Under the pieces are notes generated by a model, which saw only the letters and a program-made list of their open reading frames with translations, made no database searches and had not been told where the DNA came from. This document shows, piece after piece, positions 1 to 56,667 of a stretch of 64,000 nt of DNA. The stretch covers positions 1 through 64,000 of the forward strand of contig NZ_BONW01000030.1 in assembly GCF_016862915.1 (NCBI RefSeq), in the 5' to 3' direction. Made by a program: the position numbers and the translations under genes. The DNA is from Plantactinospora endophytica (lineage in GTDB: Bacteria; Actinomycetota; Actinomycetes; Mycobacteriales; Micromonosporaceae). Numbering within the stretch: the first letter of the stretch is position 1; every line of letters starts with the position of its first letter.

Positions 1-101
1 GGACCACCGATGGGACGGGTGATTAAGGACACCGCAGCCGATAGGTTCGGGGTGCAGCGAATCGACGGCGGCCGGCGTTAGGAGCCCGGAGGAGGAGCTG
101 G

Positions 102-596
102 ATGGCCCACGGTGCGTTCGGTGACGCCGAGGAGTTCGCCCGGGCCCGGCTGGACGCTTTGCGACGGTTCGCGTACCTGATCAGCGGCAGTGCGGCCGAG
201 GCGGACGACCTGGCCCAGATCGCCGTGGTCGAGGTCTGGCAGCGGTGGCGCAAGGCCGGGGAGAACCCGGAGGCGTACGCCCGGCAGGTGATCGTGACCC
301 GCAACGTGAGCCGGTGGCGACGGCGGCGCCGGGAGGTGCTGACCGACGACGTCGACAGCCGGCCCGACGACCCGGCCGCGACCGCCGTCGGCAACGGTGC
401 GCTGTGGCAGGCGTTGCAGCAGCTCGGCAAGGCCGAACGAACGGTCGTGGTGCTGCACGTGCTGTACCGGTACACGTTCAGCGAGATCGCCGGGATCTGC
501 GGTGAGCCACCGGGCACGGTCTCCAGCCGGTACGCGAGAGCCAAGCGTGTCCTGCGGTCGCACCTGGCCTCCGCCCAGCCAACGATTCGGAGCTGA
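102..596 (+). CDS. SigE-family RNA polymerase sigma factor (ECF-like)
   Basis: A 164-residue sigma-70 family factor that would direct RNA polymerase to a small regulon. A region 2 helix lies at about residues 10-50 (FAYLISGSAAEADDLAQ) and a region 4 helix-turn-helix at about 105-155 (FSEIAGICGEPPGTVSSR). There is no region 1 or 3, as usual for this short class. The ATG follows a strong purine-rich ribosome site (positions 88-100). The next gene starts five bases after the stop, so the two are surely co-transcribed. The partner gene is a membrane protein with an outer solute-binding domain, suggesting that this factor is controlled by an extracellular ligand. The family call is firm; the regulon is not known. 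Confidence 0.93.
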   Translation: MAHGAFGDAEEFARARLDALRRFAYLISGSAAEADDLAQIAVVEVWQRWRKAGENPEAYARQVIVTRNVSRWRRRRREVLTDDVDSRPDDPAATAVGNGALWQALQQLGKAERTVVVLHVLYRYTFSEIAGICGEPPGTVSSRYARAKRVLRSHLASAQPTIRS

Positions 597-600
597 CGTG

Positions 601-2055
601 GTGAACGAGGTAGGCCCGGTCGACGACCGGCGGCTCGGCCAGGAACTGGCCGCCACCCTGACCGAGGCGCAGCACGCCCTGCCGGCGGCCGGCCCCGAGG
701 CGATCGGCGCGATCCGTGCCCGCTACCGGCGGAAACGACGGCAGCGGGCCGGGCTGGCCGGCGCGGCGGTGGCGGTGCTGGTGCTGGCCGTGAGCCTGAC
801 CGGTGCGCAACTGACCCGGGGCGGAGGCGTGCCGCCGGTGCCGCCGGCCGAGGACGGGTCCCGGGGGGTGCTCCGGGTCTGGGCCGTCACGCCGCCGGAC
901 GCCGATCCCGCGCTGCGGAAACTGGTGAACCGCTACAACCGGACCGCCGAGGTCGACGTCGAACTGACCACCTTCGGCAACGAGGACTACAAGGAGAAGC
1001 TGCGTACCTCGGTCGGCACGGCGGACGGCCCGGACGTCTTCGCCAGTTGGGGCGGCGCCAACCTGCACCGGCTGGCCCGAGAGGGGCTGCTCACCGACCT
1101 GACCCCGGTGCGGGACGAGCCCGGGGTCGGTGACCGGTTCCTGCCCAGCGCGCTGGCCGGGGGCGTGGTGGACGGCCGGCAGTACGGCATCCCGATGAGC
1201 GGTACGCATCCGGTGGTGCTCTTCTACCACCGTGGCGTCTTCGCCGACGCCGGCGTACGCCCGCCACGCGACTACGCCGAGCTGCTCTCCCTGGTGGAGA
1301 CGTTCAAGGGCCGGGGGATCACGCCGATCTCGCTGGGCGGCGCCCAGGGCTGGACCGAGCTGATGTGGGTGATGTACCTGGCCGAGCGGACGGGTGGCCC
1401 CGGCACCACCGCCGACATCATCGCCGGTCGCCCCGACGCCTGGTCGAAGCCGGCAGTGCAGCAGGCGCTGCGGGAGGCGCGGGCGCTGGCCGAGCGGGGT
1501 GCCTTCGGGGCCAACTTCGCCTCGATCGGCTACGACGACGGCGACGCCTCCCGGCGGCTGGCCATCGGCGAGGCCGCGATGCAGTTGATGGGCACCTGGG
1601 AGTATCCGACCCAGCTCGCCCGGAACCCGGACTTCGTCGCCGACGGCGACCTTGGTTTCGTGCCGTTTCCGGCGGTCTCCGGCGGGGCCGGCGACCCCGC
1701 CGACCTGGTCGGGGTACCGACCAACTACTTCTCGGTGGCGGCCGGCAGCCCGCATCGGGCGGCGGCGTTGGAGTTCGTCCGGGCCGCCTCGTCCGACGAC
1801 TACGTGGCCGACCTGGTCGCCGACGGCGAGGTGCCACCGGTGACCGACGCGGCCGAGCGGTTGCGCGGTACCGAGCACGCGGAGTTCGCCACCTCGGTGC
1901 ACGAGTTGGTCGCCCGGGCGCCGTCGTACGGGCTGGCCTGGGATCAGGCGCTGGAGCCGAAGGCGGCCACCGCGCTCACCGCCAACCTGCAACGGCTGTT
2001 CCGGGCGGAACTCACCCCGGAGCAGTTCGCGGCGGCAATGGCGGCGACCGGCTGA
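601..2055 (+). CDS. Membrane-anchored solute-binding protein, putative sensor partner of the sigma factor
   Basis: About 484 residues from a GTG start. Residues 1-48 are cytoplasmic-looking and end in a basic stretch (RYRRKRRQRAG). One membrane span lies at about 50-70, followed by a Pro-rich linker. From about residue 90 to the end it is a family 1 extracellular solute-binding protein of the sugar-ABC type (LRVWAVTPPDADPALRKLVN; GPDVFASWGGANLHRLA; AMQLMGTWEYP). There is no lipobox or cleavable signal, and no permease or ATPase gene is adjacent, so ordinary ABC transport is unlikely here. The short inner end plus one span resembles proteins encoded beside SigE-type factors. I infer a ligand sensor acting on the upstream sigma factor; a simple orphan binding protein is the alternative. 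Confidence 0.85.
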   Translation: MNEVGPVDDRRLGQELAATLTEAQHALPAAGPEAIGAIRARYRRKRRQRAGLAGAAVAVLVLAVSLTGAQLTRGGGVPPVPPAEDGSRGVLRVWAVTPPDADPALRKLVNRYNRTAEVDVELTTFGNEDYKEKLRTSVGTADGPDVFASWGGANLHRLAREGLLTDLTPVRDEPGVGDRFLPSALAGGVVDGRQYGIPMSGTHPVVLFYHRGVFADAGVRPPRDYAELLSLVETFKGRGITPISLGGAQGWTELMWVMYLAERTGGPGTTADIIAGRPDAWSKPAVQQALREARALAERGAFGANFASIGYDDGDASRRLAIGEAAMQLMGTWEYPTQLARNPDFVADGDLGFVPFPAVSGGAGDPADLVGVPTNYFSVAAGSPHRAAALEFVRAASSDDYVADLVADGEVPPVTDAAERLRGTEHAEFATSVHELVARAPSYGLAWDQALEPKAATALTANLQRLFRAELTPEQFAAAMAATG

Positions 2056-2130
2056 CGCCGCCCCGGGCTCCCCGACTCCGGCCATTACCATCTCCGACAC
2101 CTCCCAAGGAATAACGATCCGCCTCCATGG

Positions 2131-2150
2131 ACTGTCGGATCTGCGACAGT
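2131..2150. promoter_or_regulatory. Perfect inverted repeat upstream of the xylanase gene (operator candidate)
   Basis: Two perfect 7-base arms, ACTGTCG and CGACAGT, separated by six bases, lie about 130 bases before the xylanase start and 75 bases after the upstream stop. No T-tract follows, so a terminator is less likely than a protein-binding site. Size and symmetry fit a dimeric helix-turn-helix repressor. No regulator gene for it is present in the window. Confidence 0.45.
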
Positions 2151-2280
2151 GCGTTCGGCAGCAAACGTGGGTCCGGCCCGCGTTCCGGTAGGGATCGACG
2201 CGCATCCGTCCCGCGCGCGGCGATCCCCGCCGGCTTTGGCCGGGGACTGACGTCGAACCACACCTGGAGGCCTTGTCTCG

Positions 2281-3447
2281 ATGAAGAAAATCCGGATAGC
2301 CATGGTCGGGGTACTCGCGGCCGGCGCCCTCTACACCGTCGGGCCGTCGACCGCCACCGCCGCCCCGACCCAGGTGCCGCTCGGCGCCGCCCAGGCACAG
2401 TCGAAGGGCAACTCCGCCGCGCGCACCTCCGGCGCGCCGAACACGGACCTTCCGCTCCGGCTGCTGGCCAAGCAGCACGGCCTGGGCATCGGCACCGCGG
2501 TCGACATGGCCGCGCTCGCCGCCGACACCGCGTACCGGGAGCGGGCCGCCCAGGAGTTCTCCGCGGTCACCGCCGAGAACGTGATGAAGTGGTCCGAGCT
2601 GGAGCCGACCCGGGGGCAGTACAACTGGGGTCCGGCGGACGAGTTGGTGCGGTTCGCCCAGCGCAACGGGCAGAAGGTGCACGGCCACACGCTGCTCTGG
2701 CACAGCCAACTTCCGGCCTGGCTGACCGACGGGGTCGCCGACGGCTCGATCGACTCCGCCGAGCTGCGGGAGATCGTGCGCAACCACATCACCACCGTGG
2801 TCAAGCACTTCCGGGGCAAGGTCCGGGCCTGGGACGTGGTCAACGAGGCGTTCACCGACGGCGACGCCCCGGTGCTCCGGGACACCATCTTCCGCCAGCA
2901 CCTCGGCCCGGACTACATCGCCCAGGCGCTGCGCTGGGCGCACGCGGCCGACCCGAAGGCCAAGCTCTTCCTCAACGACTACGCGATCGACAACATCAAC
3001 CCGAAGAGCACCGCGTACTACGAGCTGGCCAAGCAGCTCCGCAGGCAGCGGGTGCCACTGCACGGCCAGGGCTTCCAGGGCCACCTCGACCTCCAGTACC
3101 CGCTGCCGATCGACGCGCCGCAGAACCTGGCCCGGTTCGACAAGCTCGGCCTGGAGACCGCGTTCACCGAGGTCGACGTGCGGTTCTTCCTGCCGGGCGA
3201 CACCTACAAGGAGGCCGGGCAGGTGGGTAGCTTCAACACCCTGCTGTCGGCCTGCCTGCTCACCCCGCGCTGCGTGATGTTCACCGTGTGGGGCTTCACC
3301 GACAAGTACTCCTGGGTCCCCGGCTTCTTCGACGGACAGGGCTCGGCCACCCCGTTGGACGAGAACTTCCAGCCGAAGGCGGCCTACCGGGGTCTCCAGC
3401 AGGTCCTCGCCGTCGCCTCCGACCCGAACAACAGGCGCGGCTTCTAG
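2281..3447 (+). CDS. Secreted GH10 endo-1,4-beta-xylanase
   Basis: A 388-residue glycoside hydrolase family 10 enzyme that cuts internal beta-1,4 bonds of xylan outside the cell. Residues 1-28 form a Sec signal peptide (basic start, hydrophobic core, ATAA before the cut). The catalytic domain fills about residues 55-380. The acid/base Glu is E189 in WDVVNEAF and the nucleophile is E297 in FTEVDVRF. HGHTLLWHSQLPAWL is the family's substrate-binding stretch. There is no carbohydrate-binding module. The start is preceded by CTGGAGG. The gene lies 225 bases after the sigma factor/solute-binding pair on the same strand, with an inverted repeat between, so sugar-responsive control is plausible. Its stop codon overlaps the stop of the convergent gene. 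Confidence 0.96.
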   Translation: MKKIRIAMVGVLAAGALYTVGPSTATAAPTQVPLGAAQAQSKGNSAARTSGAPNTDLPLRLLAKQHGLGIGTAVDMAALAADTAYRERAAQEFSAVTAENVMKWSELEPTRGQYNWGPADELVRFAQRNGQKVHGHTLLWHSQLPAWLTDGVADGSIDSAELREIVRNHITTVVKHFRGKVRAWDVVNEAFTDGDAPVLRDTIFRQHLGPDYIAQALRWAHAADPKAKLFLNDYAIDNINPKSTAYYELAKQLRRQRVPLHGQGFQGHLDLQYPLPIDAPQNLARFDKLGLETAFTEVDVRFFLPGDTYKEAGQVGSFNTLLSACLLTPRCVMFTVWGFTDKYSWVPGFFDGQGSATPLDENFQPKAAYRGLQQVLAVASDPNNRRGF

Positions 3448-7749: not shown

Positions 7750-8769
7750 ATGCCGCACCCTCGTCAGTTCACCCGCCGGAACCTGCTCGGCGCGGCCGGC
7801 GCGCTCGGCCTCACCGCCCTACTCGGCGCCTGCGGCCAGGACGACGCCTCCACCGGGGACACCGGCAGCGACGGTGCGTGGAGCTTCACCGACGACCGGG
7901 GGCAGACCGCCTCCGCCGCCAGCCGCCCGAAGCGGGTCGTCGCGTTCGTCGGCACCGCCGCCGCGCTGTACGACTTCGGCGTCACCGAAGCGCTCGTCGG
8001 GGTCTTCGGGCCGACGAAGCGTGCCGACGGCAGCCCCGACGTGCAGGCCGGCAACCTGCCGGTGGCCGGGTTGACCGTCATCGGCAACACCTGGGGCGAG
8101 TTCAACATCGAGACGTACGCCTCGGTCAAACCCGAAGTGCTGGTCACGCACGAGTACGAGAAGAACTCGCTCTGGTACGTCCCGGACGAGAGCAAGGACA
8201 AAATCACCCCGTTGGCGCCGACCGTGGCCCTGGTCGCCTCGCGGGCGCCGCTGGACAAGGTGATCGGCCGACACGCGGAACTCGCCGCCGCGCTCGGCGC
8301 CGACCTGACCGCGTCTACGGTCACCGACGCCAAGGCGCGGTTCGAGGCCGCCGCCGCCAGCATCAGGGCGGCCGTGGCGGCCAATCCCGGGATCAGGGTG
8401 CTGGCCTGCTCCGCCTCCGCCGACCTCTTCTACGCCTCCAACCCGGGCGTGAACTCCGACATCCTCTACTACAAGTCGCTGGGCGTGGACGTCATCGTGC
8501 CGGGCAAGCCCGACGAGGGCGGCTACTTCGAGAGCCTGAGCTGGGAGAACGCCGACAAGTACCCGGCCGACGTGCTGCTGCTGGACAACCGCAGCAGCAC
8601 GCTCCAGCCGAAGGACCTGACAACCAAGCCGACCTGGGGCCAGCTCCCGGCGGTGAAGGCCAACCAGATCGTCGGCTGGAACAGCGAACCCCGATTCTCG
8701 TACGCCGGCAGCGCCGCCGCCCTGGAAACCCTGGCCACCGCGCTGCGCTCCGCCCGCAAGCTGGCCTGA
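7750..8769 (+). CDS. Iron-siderophore ABC transporter substrate-binding lipoprotein
   Basis: A 339-residue class III (FepB/FhuD-type) binding protein that captures ferric siderophores at the outer face of the membrane. The N-terminus carries a twin-arginine-like TRRNLLG and a lipobox LLGAC with C28 as the lipidated residue. The binding domain begins at about residue 42 (WSFTDDRGQTASAASRPKRV). AAGGAG precedes the ATG. An IdeR box sits in the promoter, so expression should rise when iron is scarce. No permease or ATPase genes are adjacent, so it probably shares a transporter encoded elsewhere. The last 19 bases, including the stop, recur 24 bases downstream. Confidence 0.93.
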   Translation: MPHPRQFTRRNLLGAAGALGLTALLGACGQDDASTGDTGSDGAWSFTDDRGQTASAASRPKRVVAFVGTAAALYDFGVTEALVGVFGPTKRADGSPDVQAGNLPVAGLTVIGNTWGEFNIETYASVKPEVLVTHEYEKNSLWYVPDESKDKITPLAPTVALVASRAPLDKVIGRHAELAAALGADLTASTVTDAKARFEAAAASIRAAVAANPGIRVLACSASADLFYASNPGVNSDILYYKSLGVDVIVPGKPDEGGYFESLSWENADKYPADVLLLDNRSSTLQPKDLTTKPTWGQLPAVKANQIVGWNSEPRFSYAGSAAALETLATALRSARKLA

Positions 8770-54734: not shown

Positions 54735-56090
54735 TCAGCGGCTGATGGTGGGCGGGCCGACGTACGACCAGGTGATGCCGTCCGGGGAGAGCCACCCGCC
54801 GGAGGAGTCCTGGTTGCCGGGCTGGGCGAGTCCACCGGGTACGGCCACCGCCGAGGCGCCCGGCCCGACCGGGACCTCACGCAGCCGCTCACCCCGGTCG
54901 AGGCCCTCGAACATGATCGGGTTTTCGCCGGCCAGGATGCCGGCCTGGATCAGCAACACCCCGTCGGGCCGGACGGCGGCGTCGATCATCCGGTCACCGA
55001 CCTGGGCCCGAGCGGCCGTACCCTGCCACGTCCGTCCCTGGTCGACACTGCGGTACACCCGCAGCACCCCGTCGACCTGGCCGACCGCGTACGCCACCTC
55101 GTCGCCGATGGCCAGCGCGGCGGCCCCCGCGTTGCCGCCCGCGTCGAGTTCCTCGGGCAGCGCCGACTGGTGCCAGCTACGTCCGCCGTCCCGGCTGACC
55201 CGAACGGCGCTGCCGCTGTAGATGACCTTGTCGGTCGAGACGGTGCCGTTCTCCTCCTGCACCGAGCCGACCCGCTCGTCGGTCCAGCCGGTGATCCACA
55301 GTCCGGCACCCACCGACCGACCCTCGATCACCCGCGCATGCTCCAACGGCTGCCGCTCGGCCAGCCGGACGATCGCCCCGCTCGCCGGATCCGCCGCCAG
55401 TACGGTCAGCCCGTCGAGGTCGGGAATCCACTCGATCGGCCGGTACGTCGCCGGCACGGCGGGGACCTCGGTGATCTGGACCTCCCGCCAGCTCACCCCG
55501 CCGTCGGTGCTGGTGAGCCAGATGTCCTGGATCCGGAGGCTGTCGATCATGCCGTCCCGCATCGGCCGTGTCTGCGCCTCGGCGATCAGCGTCTGCGGTC
55601 CCACCACGCGCAGGTCGACCAGGCTGTTGTCCGGCACCGGTATCGGCCGGGACCGCCAACTCGCGCCACCGTCGGCGCTGGCCGCCAGCCGGATCGCGCA
55701 GTTGCCGCCCTGACAGTCGCGGTAGCGCAGGTAGAGGTGGTCCAGGTCGCCGGCCATCATCCGGCCGGCGACGGTGGCCGGCCCCGGGGTGACGGTCGGT
55801 GGCGGATCCAGCCCCGGCGTGGCGCTCGGCCCCGGCGTCGGAACGAAGTCGGGCGTACGGTCGAGCCGTACCGGCGGGCCGAGGGTGCCGTACCGGGGGG
55901 TGTCGTCCCCCGAGGGCAGGCCGCGCCAGGCCACCCCGGCGCCGACGGCGACCACGGCAACCAGCGCCGCCGCCCCGGCCACCCGGGTACGCTGCCGCCG
56001 GCCCCGCGCCCGGCGTTCCACCTCGGCGAAGTGCGGCCTGAACGCGGCCTGCGCCGCCTGGGCCAGTCCGGAGAAGTCGGGTTCGGGCAT
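54735..56090 (-). CDS. Membrane-anchored Asp-box beta-propeller protein, partner of a sigma factor
   Basis: A 451-residue protein. Residues 1-36 are cytoplasmic and end basic (VERRARGRRQRTRVAG); one membrane span is at about 37-55. Residues 110-451 form an exo-sialidase-like propeller with four Asp-boxes: SADGGASW (138-145), STDGGVSW (194-201), SRDGGRSW (299-306) and SVDQGRTW (348-355). The sialidase arginine triad and FRIP motif are not seen, so catalysis is doubtful. It lies 52 bases after the sigma factor gene on the same strand. I infer a sensor or anti-sigma-like partner. Confidence 0.85.
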   Translation of the reverse strand: MPEPDFSGLAQAAQAAFRPHFAEVERRARGRRQRTRVAGAAALVAVVAVGAGVAWRGLPSGDDTPRYGTLGPPVRLDRTPDFVPTPGPSATPGLDPPPTVTPGPATVAGRMMAGDLDHLYLRYRDCQGGNCAIRLAASADGGASWRSRPIPVPDNSLVDLRVVGPQTLIAEAQTRPMRDGMIDSLRIQDIWLTSTDGGVSWREVQITEVPAVPATYRPIEWIPDLDGLTVLAADPASGAIVRLAERQPLEHARVIEGRSVGAGLWITGWTDERVGSVQEENGTVSTDKVIYSGSAVRVSRDGGRSWHQSALPEELDAGGNAGAAALAIGDEVAYAVGQVDGVLRVYRSVDQGRTWQGTAARAQVGDRMIDAAVRPDGVLLIQAGILAGENPIMFEGLDRGERLREVPVGPGASAVAVPGGLAQPGNQDSSGGWLSPDGITWSYVGPPTISR

Positions 56091-56142
56091 GGCAGATCCT
56101 CCCGTTCGGATCGGTGAAGTCGTGGCTGGAGGGATCGACGGG

Positions 56143-56667
56143 TCAGTGCGGGTTCGACCGGCCGGTGACGAACTGTTCCGCCCCGGGTTCGGCCAGGTGC
56201 CCGGCGAGGGCCTGCCGGCCGCGTACGAGTCGGGTCTTGACGGCCCCCACCGAGCAGCCCAGCGCGGCGGCGACCTCGGCCACCGGCAGGTCGCCGATGT
56301 GGTGCAGCACCACGGTCTCCCGGGTGGCCCTGGGTAGCCGTTGCAGCGCGGCGACCAGCGCCACGTGGTCGGGCGACAACTCGGGGCCGTCCCGTTCGGC
56401 ACCGGCCAGCCGGCCGGACCGGATCAGCCGGTCCAGCCGGATCCGGCGGCGGAACCGGGACCGGGCCACGTTCAACGCGACGGTACGCAGCCACGCCTCC
56501 GGGTTGTCGACCTGCCGGAACCGGCCCGGCCGGGCCAACGCCCGGACGAACGCCTCCTGCACGGCGTCCTGCGCCTCGGCGTAGTCCGCGGTCACCGCGA
56601 AGAGCTGCGCCACCAGTCGGGCCGCCGAAGCGGCGTACACGTCTCGGATTGCCTGCTGTCCGTCCAC
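56143..56667 (-). CDS. ECF/SigE-like RNA polymerase sigma factor
   Basis: A 174-residue sigma-70 family factor. Region 2 lies at about 10-75 (LVAQLFAVTADYAEAQDAVQ; ALARPGRFRQVDNPEAWLRT) and region 4 at about 105-155 (LQRLPRATRETVVLHHIGDL; AALGCSVGAVKTRLVRGRQA). The GTG start follows AGGGGA. The downstream gene is a membrane-anchored propeller, so this pair repeats the layout of the sigma/solute-binding pair at the window's left end. The regulon is unknown. Confidence 0.92.
   Translation of the reverse strand: MDGQQAIRDVYAASAARLVAQLFAVTADYAEAQDAVQEAFVRALARPGRFRQVDNPEAWLRTVALNVARSRFRRRIRLDRLIRSGRLAGAERDGPELSPDHVALVAALQRLPRATRETVVLHHIGDLPVAEVAAALGCSVGAVKTRLVRGRQALAGHLAEPGAEQFVTGRSNPH

Follow-up and report, generated by a model that had tools for sequence, protein, structure and literature searches.

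How a solute-binding domain of the ATP-binding cassette (ABC) transporter type comes to be encoded between a sigma factor and a xylanase, and what it does there, is the question raised by the beginning of contig C30 (NZ_BONW01000030.1) in the 9.7-Mb genome of Plantactinospora endophytica. We analyzed the first 64,000 nucleotides of this contig (hereafter the window), in which three genes follow one another on the plus strand: an extracytoplasmic function (ECF) sigma factor, a fusion protein that joins an inner segment and one membrane span to a solute-binding domain (hereafter the receptor), and a xylanase of glycoside hydrolase family 10 (GH10). Gene order, homology and a shared promoter-like element suggest that the sigma factor and the receptor form a switch for xylan breakdown. 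In its full form, which includes sequestration of the sigma factor, ligand-dependent release, proteolysis and a second regulator acting at a palindrome, we give this model a probability of roughly 0.7.

102–596, plus strand: ECF sigma factor, SigE-like, 164 amino acids; PF04542 and PF08281 above cut-off, best NCBIfam model (TIGR02983) below cut-off
601–2055, plus strand: membrane receptor and presumed anti-sigma factor, with inner segment, one span and BxlE-type solute-binding domain, 484 amino acids; alternative start at GTG 598
2281–3447, plus strand: GH10 endo-xylanase, 388 amino acids, with a signal peptide-like N-terminus (by eye); PF00331, E 2.4e-96

A conserved row of sigma factor, receptor and xylanase

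The sigma factor consists of sigma regions 2 and 4 only, as is typical of the ECF group, and both are recognisable (PF04542, Sigma70_r2, 37.5 bits against a cut-off of 24; PF08281, Sigma70_r4_2, 44.5 bits against 25.7). A preliminary description of this DNA, made from its letters alone, had called it SigE-type. The ECF assignment stands, but strict membership in SigE-fam_strep (TIGR02983) does not: this family is the top NCBIfam match, yet the score of 114.2 bits lies below the cut-off of 141.55. The protein is a near neighbour of that family.

The sigma factor and the receptor are encoded by separate genes in different frames. The receptor starts at GTG 598 or 601, one or four bases past the sigma stop codon. 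Among the 13 loci in which starts were read, the window is the only one with such a gap; in the other 12, the two genes overlap by 4 or 8 bases. At the fourteenth locus (L047, Micromonospora sp. KC213) the pair was placed by match positions only. This adjacency and coupling to the sigma gene are as expected of an anti-sigma factor. Since base 1 of the window is the end of the contig, upstream genes were read in the relative L043, where a folD-like gene and a DUF4230 gene precede the locus.

The three-gene row is not a product of chance, because the order of sigma factor, fusion and GH10 gene is kept in all seven Plantactinospora genomes examined. In the six relatives, the fusion is 69–82% identical to that of the window, and the GH10 orthologue in the same place 83–89%. 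The xylanase contains the motifs VVNEA and TEVD, which we take to be the catalytic motifs of GH10. Across the family, a survey of gene neighbourhoods, as the preliminary description had proposed, recovered the same fusion: a sigma orthologue at E 1e-35 or better, with the ten best candidates per genome scored, is present in 14 of 354 Micromonosporaceae genomes, and the receptor domain follows directly in all 14. Outside the genus, the pair occurs in Micromonospora sp. KC723 and KC213, Nucisporomicrobium flavum, Amorphoplanes auranticolor, A. nipponensis and Jidongwangia harbinensis, none of which has a GH10 gene within the available flanks; genome G519 also carries the pair, with little downstream DNA. 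An order-wide draw of 397 genomes, searched at E 1e-45, yielded the sigma factor in two, both Micromonosporaceae. Among the best 80 of 414 relatives in a GTDB-wide scan, nine were fusions, all Micromonosporaceae by name; the other 71 were classed as non-fusions, with no sigma match before the gene. GH10 matches occur in the flanks of 26 of these 71 records, mostly from Streptomyces and Pseudonocardiaceae and not from the nearest Micromonosporaceae, and L051 has a GH43-like gene (by eye) after its permeases.

Other proteins were observed near the sigma loci outside Plantactinospora. Directly after the fusion in the Actinoplanes group lies a conserved protein of about 535 amino acids with a signal peptide-like start (L054:8434–10050, L056:3601–5205, L071:8458–10068, and L061 by eye). 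A GGASQG motif and weak alpha/beta-hydrolase signals suggest that it is possibly an esterase; it matched no family above cut-off and no PDB sequence, and its model has a mean predicted local distance difference test (pLDDT) score of 35.9. In Micromonospora sp. KC213, a GH43 enzyme with CBM4_9 and CBM6 modules (L047:1423–3873) lies about 2.6 kb from the sigma gene.

Architecture of the receptor

The receptor was modeled with AlphaFold2 from 43 sequences (mean pLDDT 86.1, with 67–76 for residues 11–50 and 46 for residues 1–10), and ratios of nonsynonymous to synonymous substitution (dN/dS) were calculated along its length. It divides into four parts:

601–744, plus strand: cytoplasmic segment, residues 1–48 (helix 6–26, a turn, the start of helix 32–70, and a basic patch at the end); supported by model pLDDT and dN/dS
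748–810, plus strand: single transmembrane span, about residues 50–70; hydropathy 2.11, within helix 32–70 of the model
811–864, plus strand: flexible linker, residues 71–88; pLDDT below 50 for residues 65–86, fast-evolving
865–2052, plus strand: solute-binding domain, residues 89–484; sequence match to BxlE (3vxb/3vxc) and Foldseek match to 3vxc_A

Eight arginine or lysine residues fall within the 14 positions before the hydrophobic stretch, which begins at about residue 50, and one falls after it, a distribution that predicts a cytoplasmic N-terminus. Together with the hydropathy profile and the SBP_bac_1 match over residues 100–401 (E 1.8e-38), it bears out the initial description of a short basic inner end, one span and a sugar-type binding domain. 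In Pfam searches of the receptor at E 0.001, only SBP_bac_1 and SBP_bac_8 were found. By dN/dS, the linker evolves fastest (0.88), ahead of the inner segment (0.53), the binding domain (0.43) and the basic patch (0.27); residue numbering in this calculation is one higher than that used elsewhere. The inner segment is thus under stronger purifying selection than the linker.

Residues 1–110 are free of cysteine in 8 of the 14 fusions, that of the window among them. In the remaining six, cysteines lie at positions 51–55, early in the span (three fusions), or at 94–105 (five fusions); two proteins have both. None of the 14 has a lipobox-like cysteine at the end of the span, as an importer lipoprotein would. 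Such a cysteine is visible in 15 of 21 lipoprotein N-termini from the family, the other six ending before the site.

Origin of the binding domain

The nearest solved protein to the outer domain is BxlE of Streptomyces thermoviolaceus (3vxb/3vxc, E 6.3e-94). Foldseek superimposed the receptor model on xylobiose-bound 3vxc_A at 1.4 Å, with a TM-score of 0.95 by target length, and on 3vxb at 3.5 Å. BxlE heads its list, and the top seven entries, which represent four proteins, are all binding proteins for xylo-oligosaccharides or otherwise related to xylan. In sequence as in fold, the domain is closest to xylo-oligosaccharide-binding proteins, and this homology supports a xylo-oligosaccharide as the likely class of ligand.

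In a phylogenetic tree, a branch with a Shimodaira–Hasegawa-like approximate likelihood ratio (SH-aLRT) support of 99 separates the 14 fusions from the remaining sequences, and they are nested inside BxlE-like lipoproteins, beside those of the same family; the tree was built by a quick method without bootstrap, from 64 of 109 sequences after near-copy lipoproteins had been removed. The two groups also differ in their neighbourhoods. A permease of the BxlF or BxlG type lies in the same record in 92 of 92 lipoprotein records, several of which duplicate a locus already counted (for example L023/L048, L025/L049, L027/L052 and L026/L055). It was found in none of the 22 fusion records, which represent 14 loci and extend from at most 1.5 kb to 7 kb on each side. 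A matching permease was the observation named in advance as telling against a signaling role, and an importer's binding protein would be expected to have one beside it. Genome-wide, no relative of BxlF at E 1e-40 was detected in the seven Plantactinospora genomes or in the two Micromonospora genomes with fusions (KC723 and KC213), and the search recovered its positive controls in three of three genomes. Because both permease and lipobox are absent, we consider a role of the receptor in uptake unlikely. From the single clade within the lipoproteins and the pattern of permeases, the binding domain appears to have been withdrawn from transport on one occasion and built into a receptor. One apparent second fusion in the same genome, L006, was set aside, as its open reading frames are an ordinary lipoprotein followed by a permease-like gene (by eye).

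A promoter-like element shared by the sigma operon and the xylanase gene

Aligning the gap between fusion and GH10 gene in the seven Plantactinospora loci revealed a conserved block, whose palindrome was then met before the sigma gene in other genera. The corresponding features of the window are:

2158–2184, plus strand: putative ECF promoter of the xylanase gene, GCAGC at 2158–2162 and GCGTT at 2180–2184; in 7/7 genus loci
2133–2148, plus strand: palindrome-like site of 16 bp (TGTCG-N6-CGACA) that precedes the promoter core of the xylanase gene; belongs to the genome's single exact match to the composite pattern
54–79, plus strand: putative ECF promoter of the sigma operon, GCAGC at 54–58 and GCGTT at 75–79, without the palindrome; core, in exact or variant form, in 6/7 genus loci

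The composite element, TGTCGG-N6-GACA-N9-GCAGC-N15-18-GCGT(T/C), stands before the xylanase gene in the seven Plantactinospora genomes and before the sigma gene in seven others. Its GCAGC and GCGTY blocks resemble what we take to be the general form of ECF promoters, with GCAGC at −35 and GCGTY at −10. Searching the 354 family genomes for TGTCGG-N6-GACA-N9-GCAGC returned 22 sites in 21 genomes: all 14 genomes with the sigma factor are represented, and 8 sites fall in 7 of the 340 others (Fisher's exact p 2.7e-20, related genomes not being independent). A reversed control pattern occurs in 11 genomes of the family, once each. At all 14 fusion-linked sites, GCGT(T/C) follows GCAGC after 15–18 bases, as against none of the 8 background sites. 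Upstream of the Plantactinospora sigma genes, the core reads GCAGCGAATC in four of seven loci and CAACGGATTG, a CAACG variant, in two. These results support a promoter-like link between the sigma operon and the xylanase gene and so lend weight to the signaling module for polysaccharide breakdown first suggested for this locus, the predicted ligand class resting on homology to BxlE.

The palindrome stands at a fixed distance of nine bases before the −35-like GCAGC, a spacing that presumably resembles the site of a dimeric activator such as CRP, and a further, dimeric regulator may bind it. A copy at C1:529477 (L126) was not counted, being inside an open frame and without GCAGC at the fixed distance. 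With one mismatch allowed, the seven genus genomes contained six additional sites, fewer than the 16 hit by the reversed control. Among the six, G000:C37:30984 and G004:C1:1638048 look similar and possibly represent one locus seen in two genomes.

Related sigma/single-span pairs in the same genome

An alignment search with the sigma factor at E 1e-8 found 32 places in this genome, its own included. Two of the 31 paralogous matches gave no locus, which left 29 loci to be read (L178–L206). In 28 of these, the sigma gene is coupled, at a gap of −20 to +52 bases, to a predicted N-in/C-out partner whose basic patch is followed by one span, beginning at residue 34–92, and a long outer part; L205 gave no parsable partner. 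A profile of fusion residues 1–75 matched 22 of the 28 partners below E 0.01, compared with none of 28 shuffled controls. Pfam scans of 20 of the 28 partners found beta-propeller-type repeats above cut-off in five and weakly in four, a LytR-CpsA-Psr domain in one, and nothing telling in ten; a second solute-binding domain was not found among these 20. Because 28 of 29 loci have a coupled partner of the same layout with differing outer parts, the window pair belongs to a large group of pairs whose outer domains vary.

A further pair of this layout lies in the window itself, at 54738–56601 on the minus strand, where a second SigE-like sigma gene (56188–56601) is followed by a single-span protein with outer BNR/Asp-box repeats. 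At 7750–8769, a lipoprotein resembles an iron-siderophore binding protein (by eye); it is conserved downstream in L043 and L045.

Proposed mechanism and alternatives

We propose the following sequence of events. The sigma factor and the receptor would be produced together from overlapping or abutting genes, and without ligand the two-helix inner segment of the receptor would keep the sigma factor at the membrane. The outer BxlE-type domain would bind xylobiose or a relative, and the closed, bound domain would switch the receptor to another state, most probably by making the linker (residues 65–88) accessible to a first protease. A second cleavage, within the membrane, would then free the sigma factor to read promoters of the form GCAGC-N15-18-GCGT(T/C), namely those of its own operon and, in Plantactinospora, of the adjacent xylanase gene. 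A second protein, probably dimeric, would act at the palindrome before the promoter.

Several observations weigh against this model. The GH10 gene adjoins the sigma locus only within Plantactinospora; the next gene encodes an alpha/beta-hydrolase-like protein in four loci of other genera and nothing clear in the two Micromonospora loci. The inner segment matches no known anti-sigma family in Pfam, of either the zinc-binding class I or the RsgI type. The profile of residues 1–75 leans on the basic and hydrophobic stretch, and a profile of the cytoplasmic part only matched just 2 of the 28 partners below E 0.01, beyond which homology is not demonstrable. Thirteen of the 14 loci had served to derive the element pattern, so that G519 is the sole blind match, among relatives that are not independent. 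The −35/−10 core alone is common, occurring 13 times on both strands of the 64 kb. The sigma promoters of the genus are without the palindrome, and L017, one of the seven genus loci, has neither core nor palindrome before the sigma gene. Finally, five Actinoplanes-group genomes with fusions encode, elsewhere in the genome, a permease about 50% identical to BxlF.

The alternatives considered here overlap in their odds, which need not sum to one with those of the preferred explanation. That permease, and the homology of the domain to ABC binding proteins, would suit an ordinary importer component held on an uncleaved signal anchor, its permease encoded elsewhere and its position after the sigma gene incidental or a matter of mere co-regulation. 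Yet in G148, the one of the five genomes examined for neighbours, the permease adjoins a different binding protein (C44:83358 and C44:84290). The absence of BxlF relatives from the Plantactinospora and Micromonospora fusion genomes, the missing lipobox and the sigma gene directly before the fusion in 14/14 loci also speak against an importer, and we regard this explanation as very improbable.

A better candidate, albeit an unlikely one, is the same module with another logic: the receptor might activate or deliver the sigma factor, the ligand might strengthen sequestration as a form of feedback, or a conformational or dimer switch might operate without proteolysis. The sign of the response is not fixed by sequence, and dimers are possible, though it is hard to see how a clamshell on a single span would pass a change of shape across the membrane. 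Against it, two reviews give sequestration by an anti-sigma factor as the commonest control of ECF sigma factors (PMC8999054, PMC5826349). The palindrome could instead be the operator of an unrelated regulator, for example of xylan use or catabolite control, that governs both the sigma operon and the GH10 gene, with the sigma factor serving other targets. No other part of the element is as conspicuous as the palindrome, and its absence from the genus sigma promoters is in keeping with this reading; but within the genus it is the GCAGC...GCGT(T/C) core, exact in four of seven sigma genes, and not the palindrome, that sigma and GH10 promoters share, and the spacing of this core separates the fusion-linked from the background sites. 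We consider an unrelated operator rather unlikely.

We thus retain the sigma/receptor switch and, with somewhat less confidence, also favour a broader conclusion: a binding protein probably became the outer domain of a sigma receptor once, within the Micromonosporaceae, losing its lipid anchor and permease; the resulting xylo-oligosaccharide receptor would control a xylanase through an ECF promoter; and some thirty diversified pairs would form a large modular family. If this is true, a sigma-factor switch has taken its sensor domain from a transport protein. The presumed ligand, target gene and promoter are all predictable from the sequence, which makes the model directly testable and offers a handle on the many similar, mostly uncharacterised sigma/single-span pairs of this genome.

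Comparison with known systems

Solute-binding proteins are known to signal through histidine kinases (PMC10384115, PMC9602780). In Streptomyces, xylobiose is taken up by BxlEFG under the LacI-type regulator BxlR (PMC12772271). The receptor shares with S. thermoviolaceus BxlE its fold, 39% identity in the structure alignment, and the stretches WGG, MG(T/S)WEY and WDQA. BxlE, however, is the binding lipoprotein of an importer (PMC8233162), whereas the receptor has a span and an inner segment in place of the lipobox. Three-component systems such as CuaDSR and XylFII-LytS likewise use a sugar solute-binding protein for signaling, but in them the binding protein is a polypeptide of its own that addresses a histidine kinase (PMC10384115), while the domain described here sits in a sigma-coupled membrane protein.

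ECF52 and ECF53 also link an actinobacterial ECF sigma factor to the membrane and to carbohydrate binding, but they carry sigma factor, zinc finger, membrane part and carbohydrate-binding module on one polypeptide (PMC5826349, PMC8999054, PMC10766802). The window system consists of two genes, has a different binding domain and no zinc finger that we could find, and so lacks the fused sensor of those groups.

The suggestion that a solute-binding fold is new in sigma-factor control was not contradicted by the papers listed in literature searches, which by title and the start of the abstract held no sigma-factor inhibitor with such a fold; two main ECF surveys lie outside this coverage and may mention one. 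In PMC10880074 and PMC6767563, the single mention of the term in each is unrelated. Another close system is clostridial SigI/RsgI, in which a sigma factor is paired with a single-span inhibitor that has an inner sigma-binding part and an outer polysaccharide sensor and controls glycoside hydrolases (PMC12203970). RsgI differs in having an N-terminal domain of its own and a periplasmic domain that cleaves itself, neither of which has a Pfam match in the window receptor. Its sensors are carbohydrate-binding modules or glycosidase, peptidase-like or unknown domains (PMC12203970), in contrast to the ABC-type clamshell of the receptor. We interpret the window pair as a novel variant of sigma/anti-sigma sensing.

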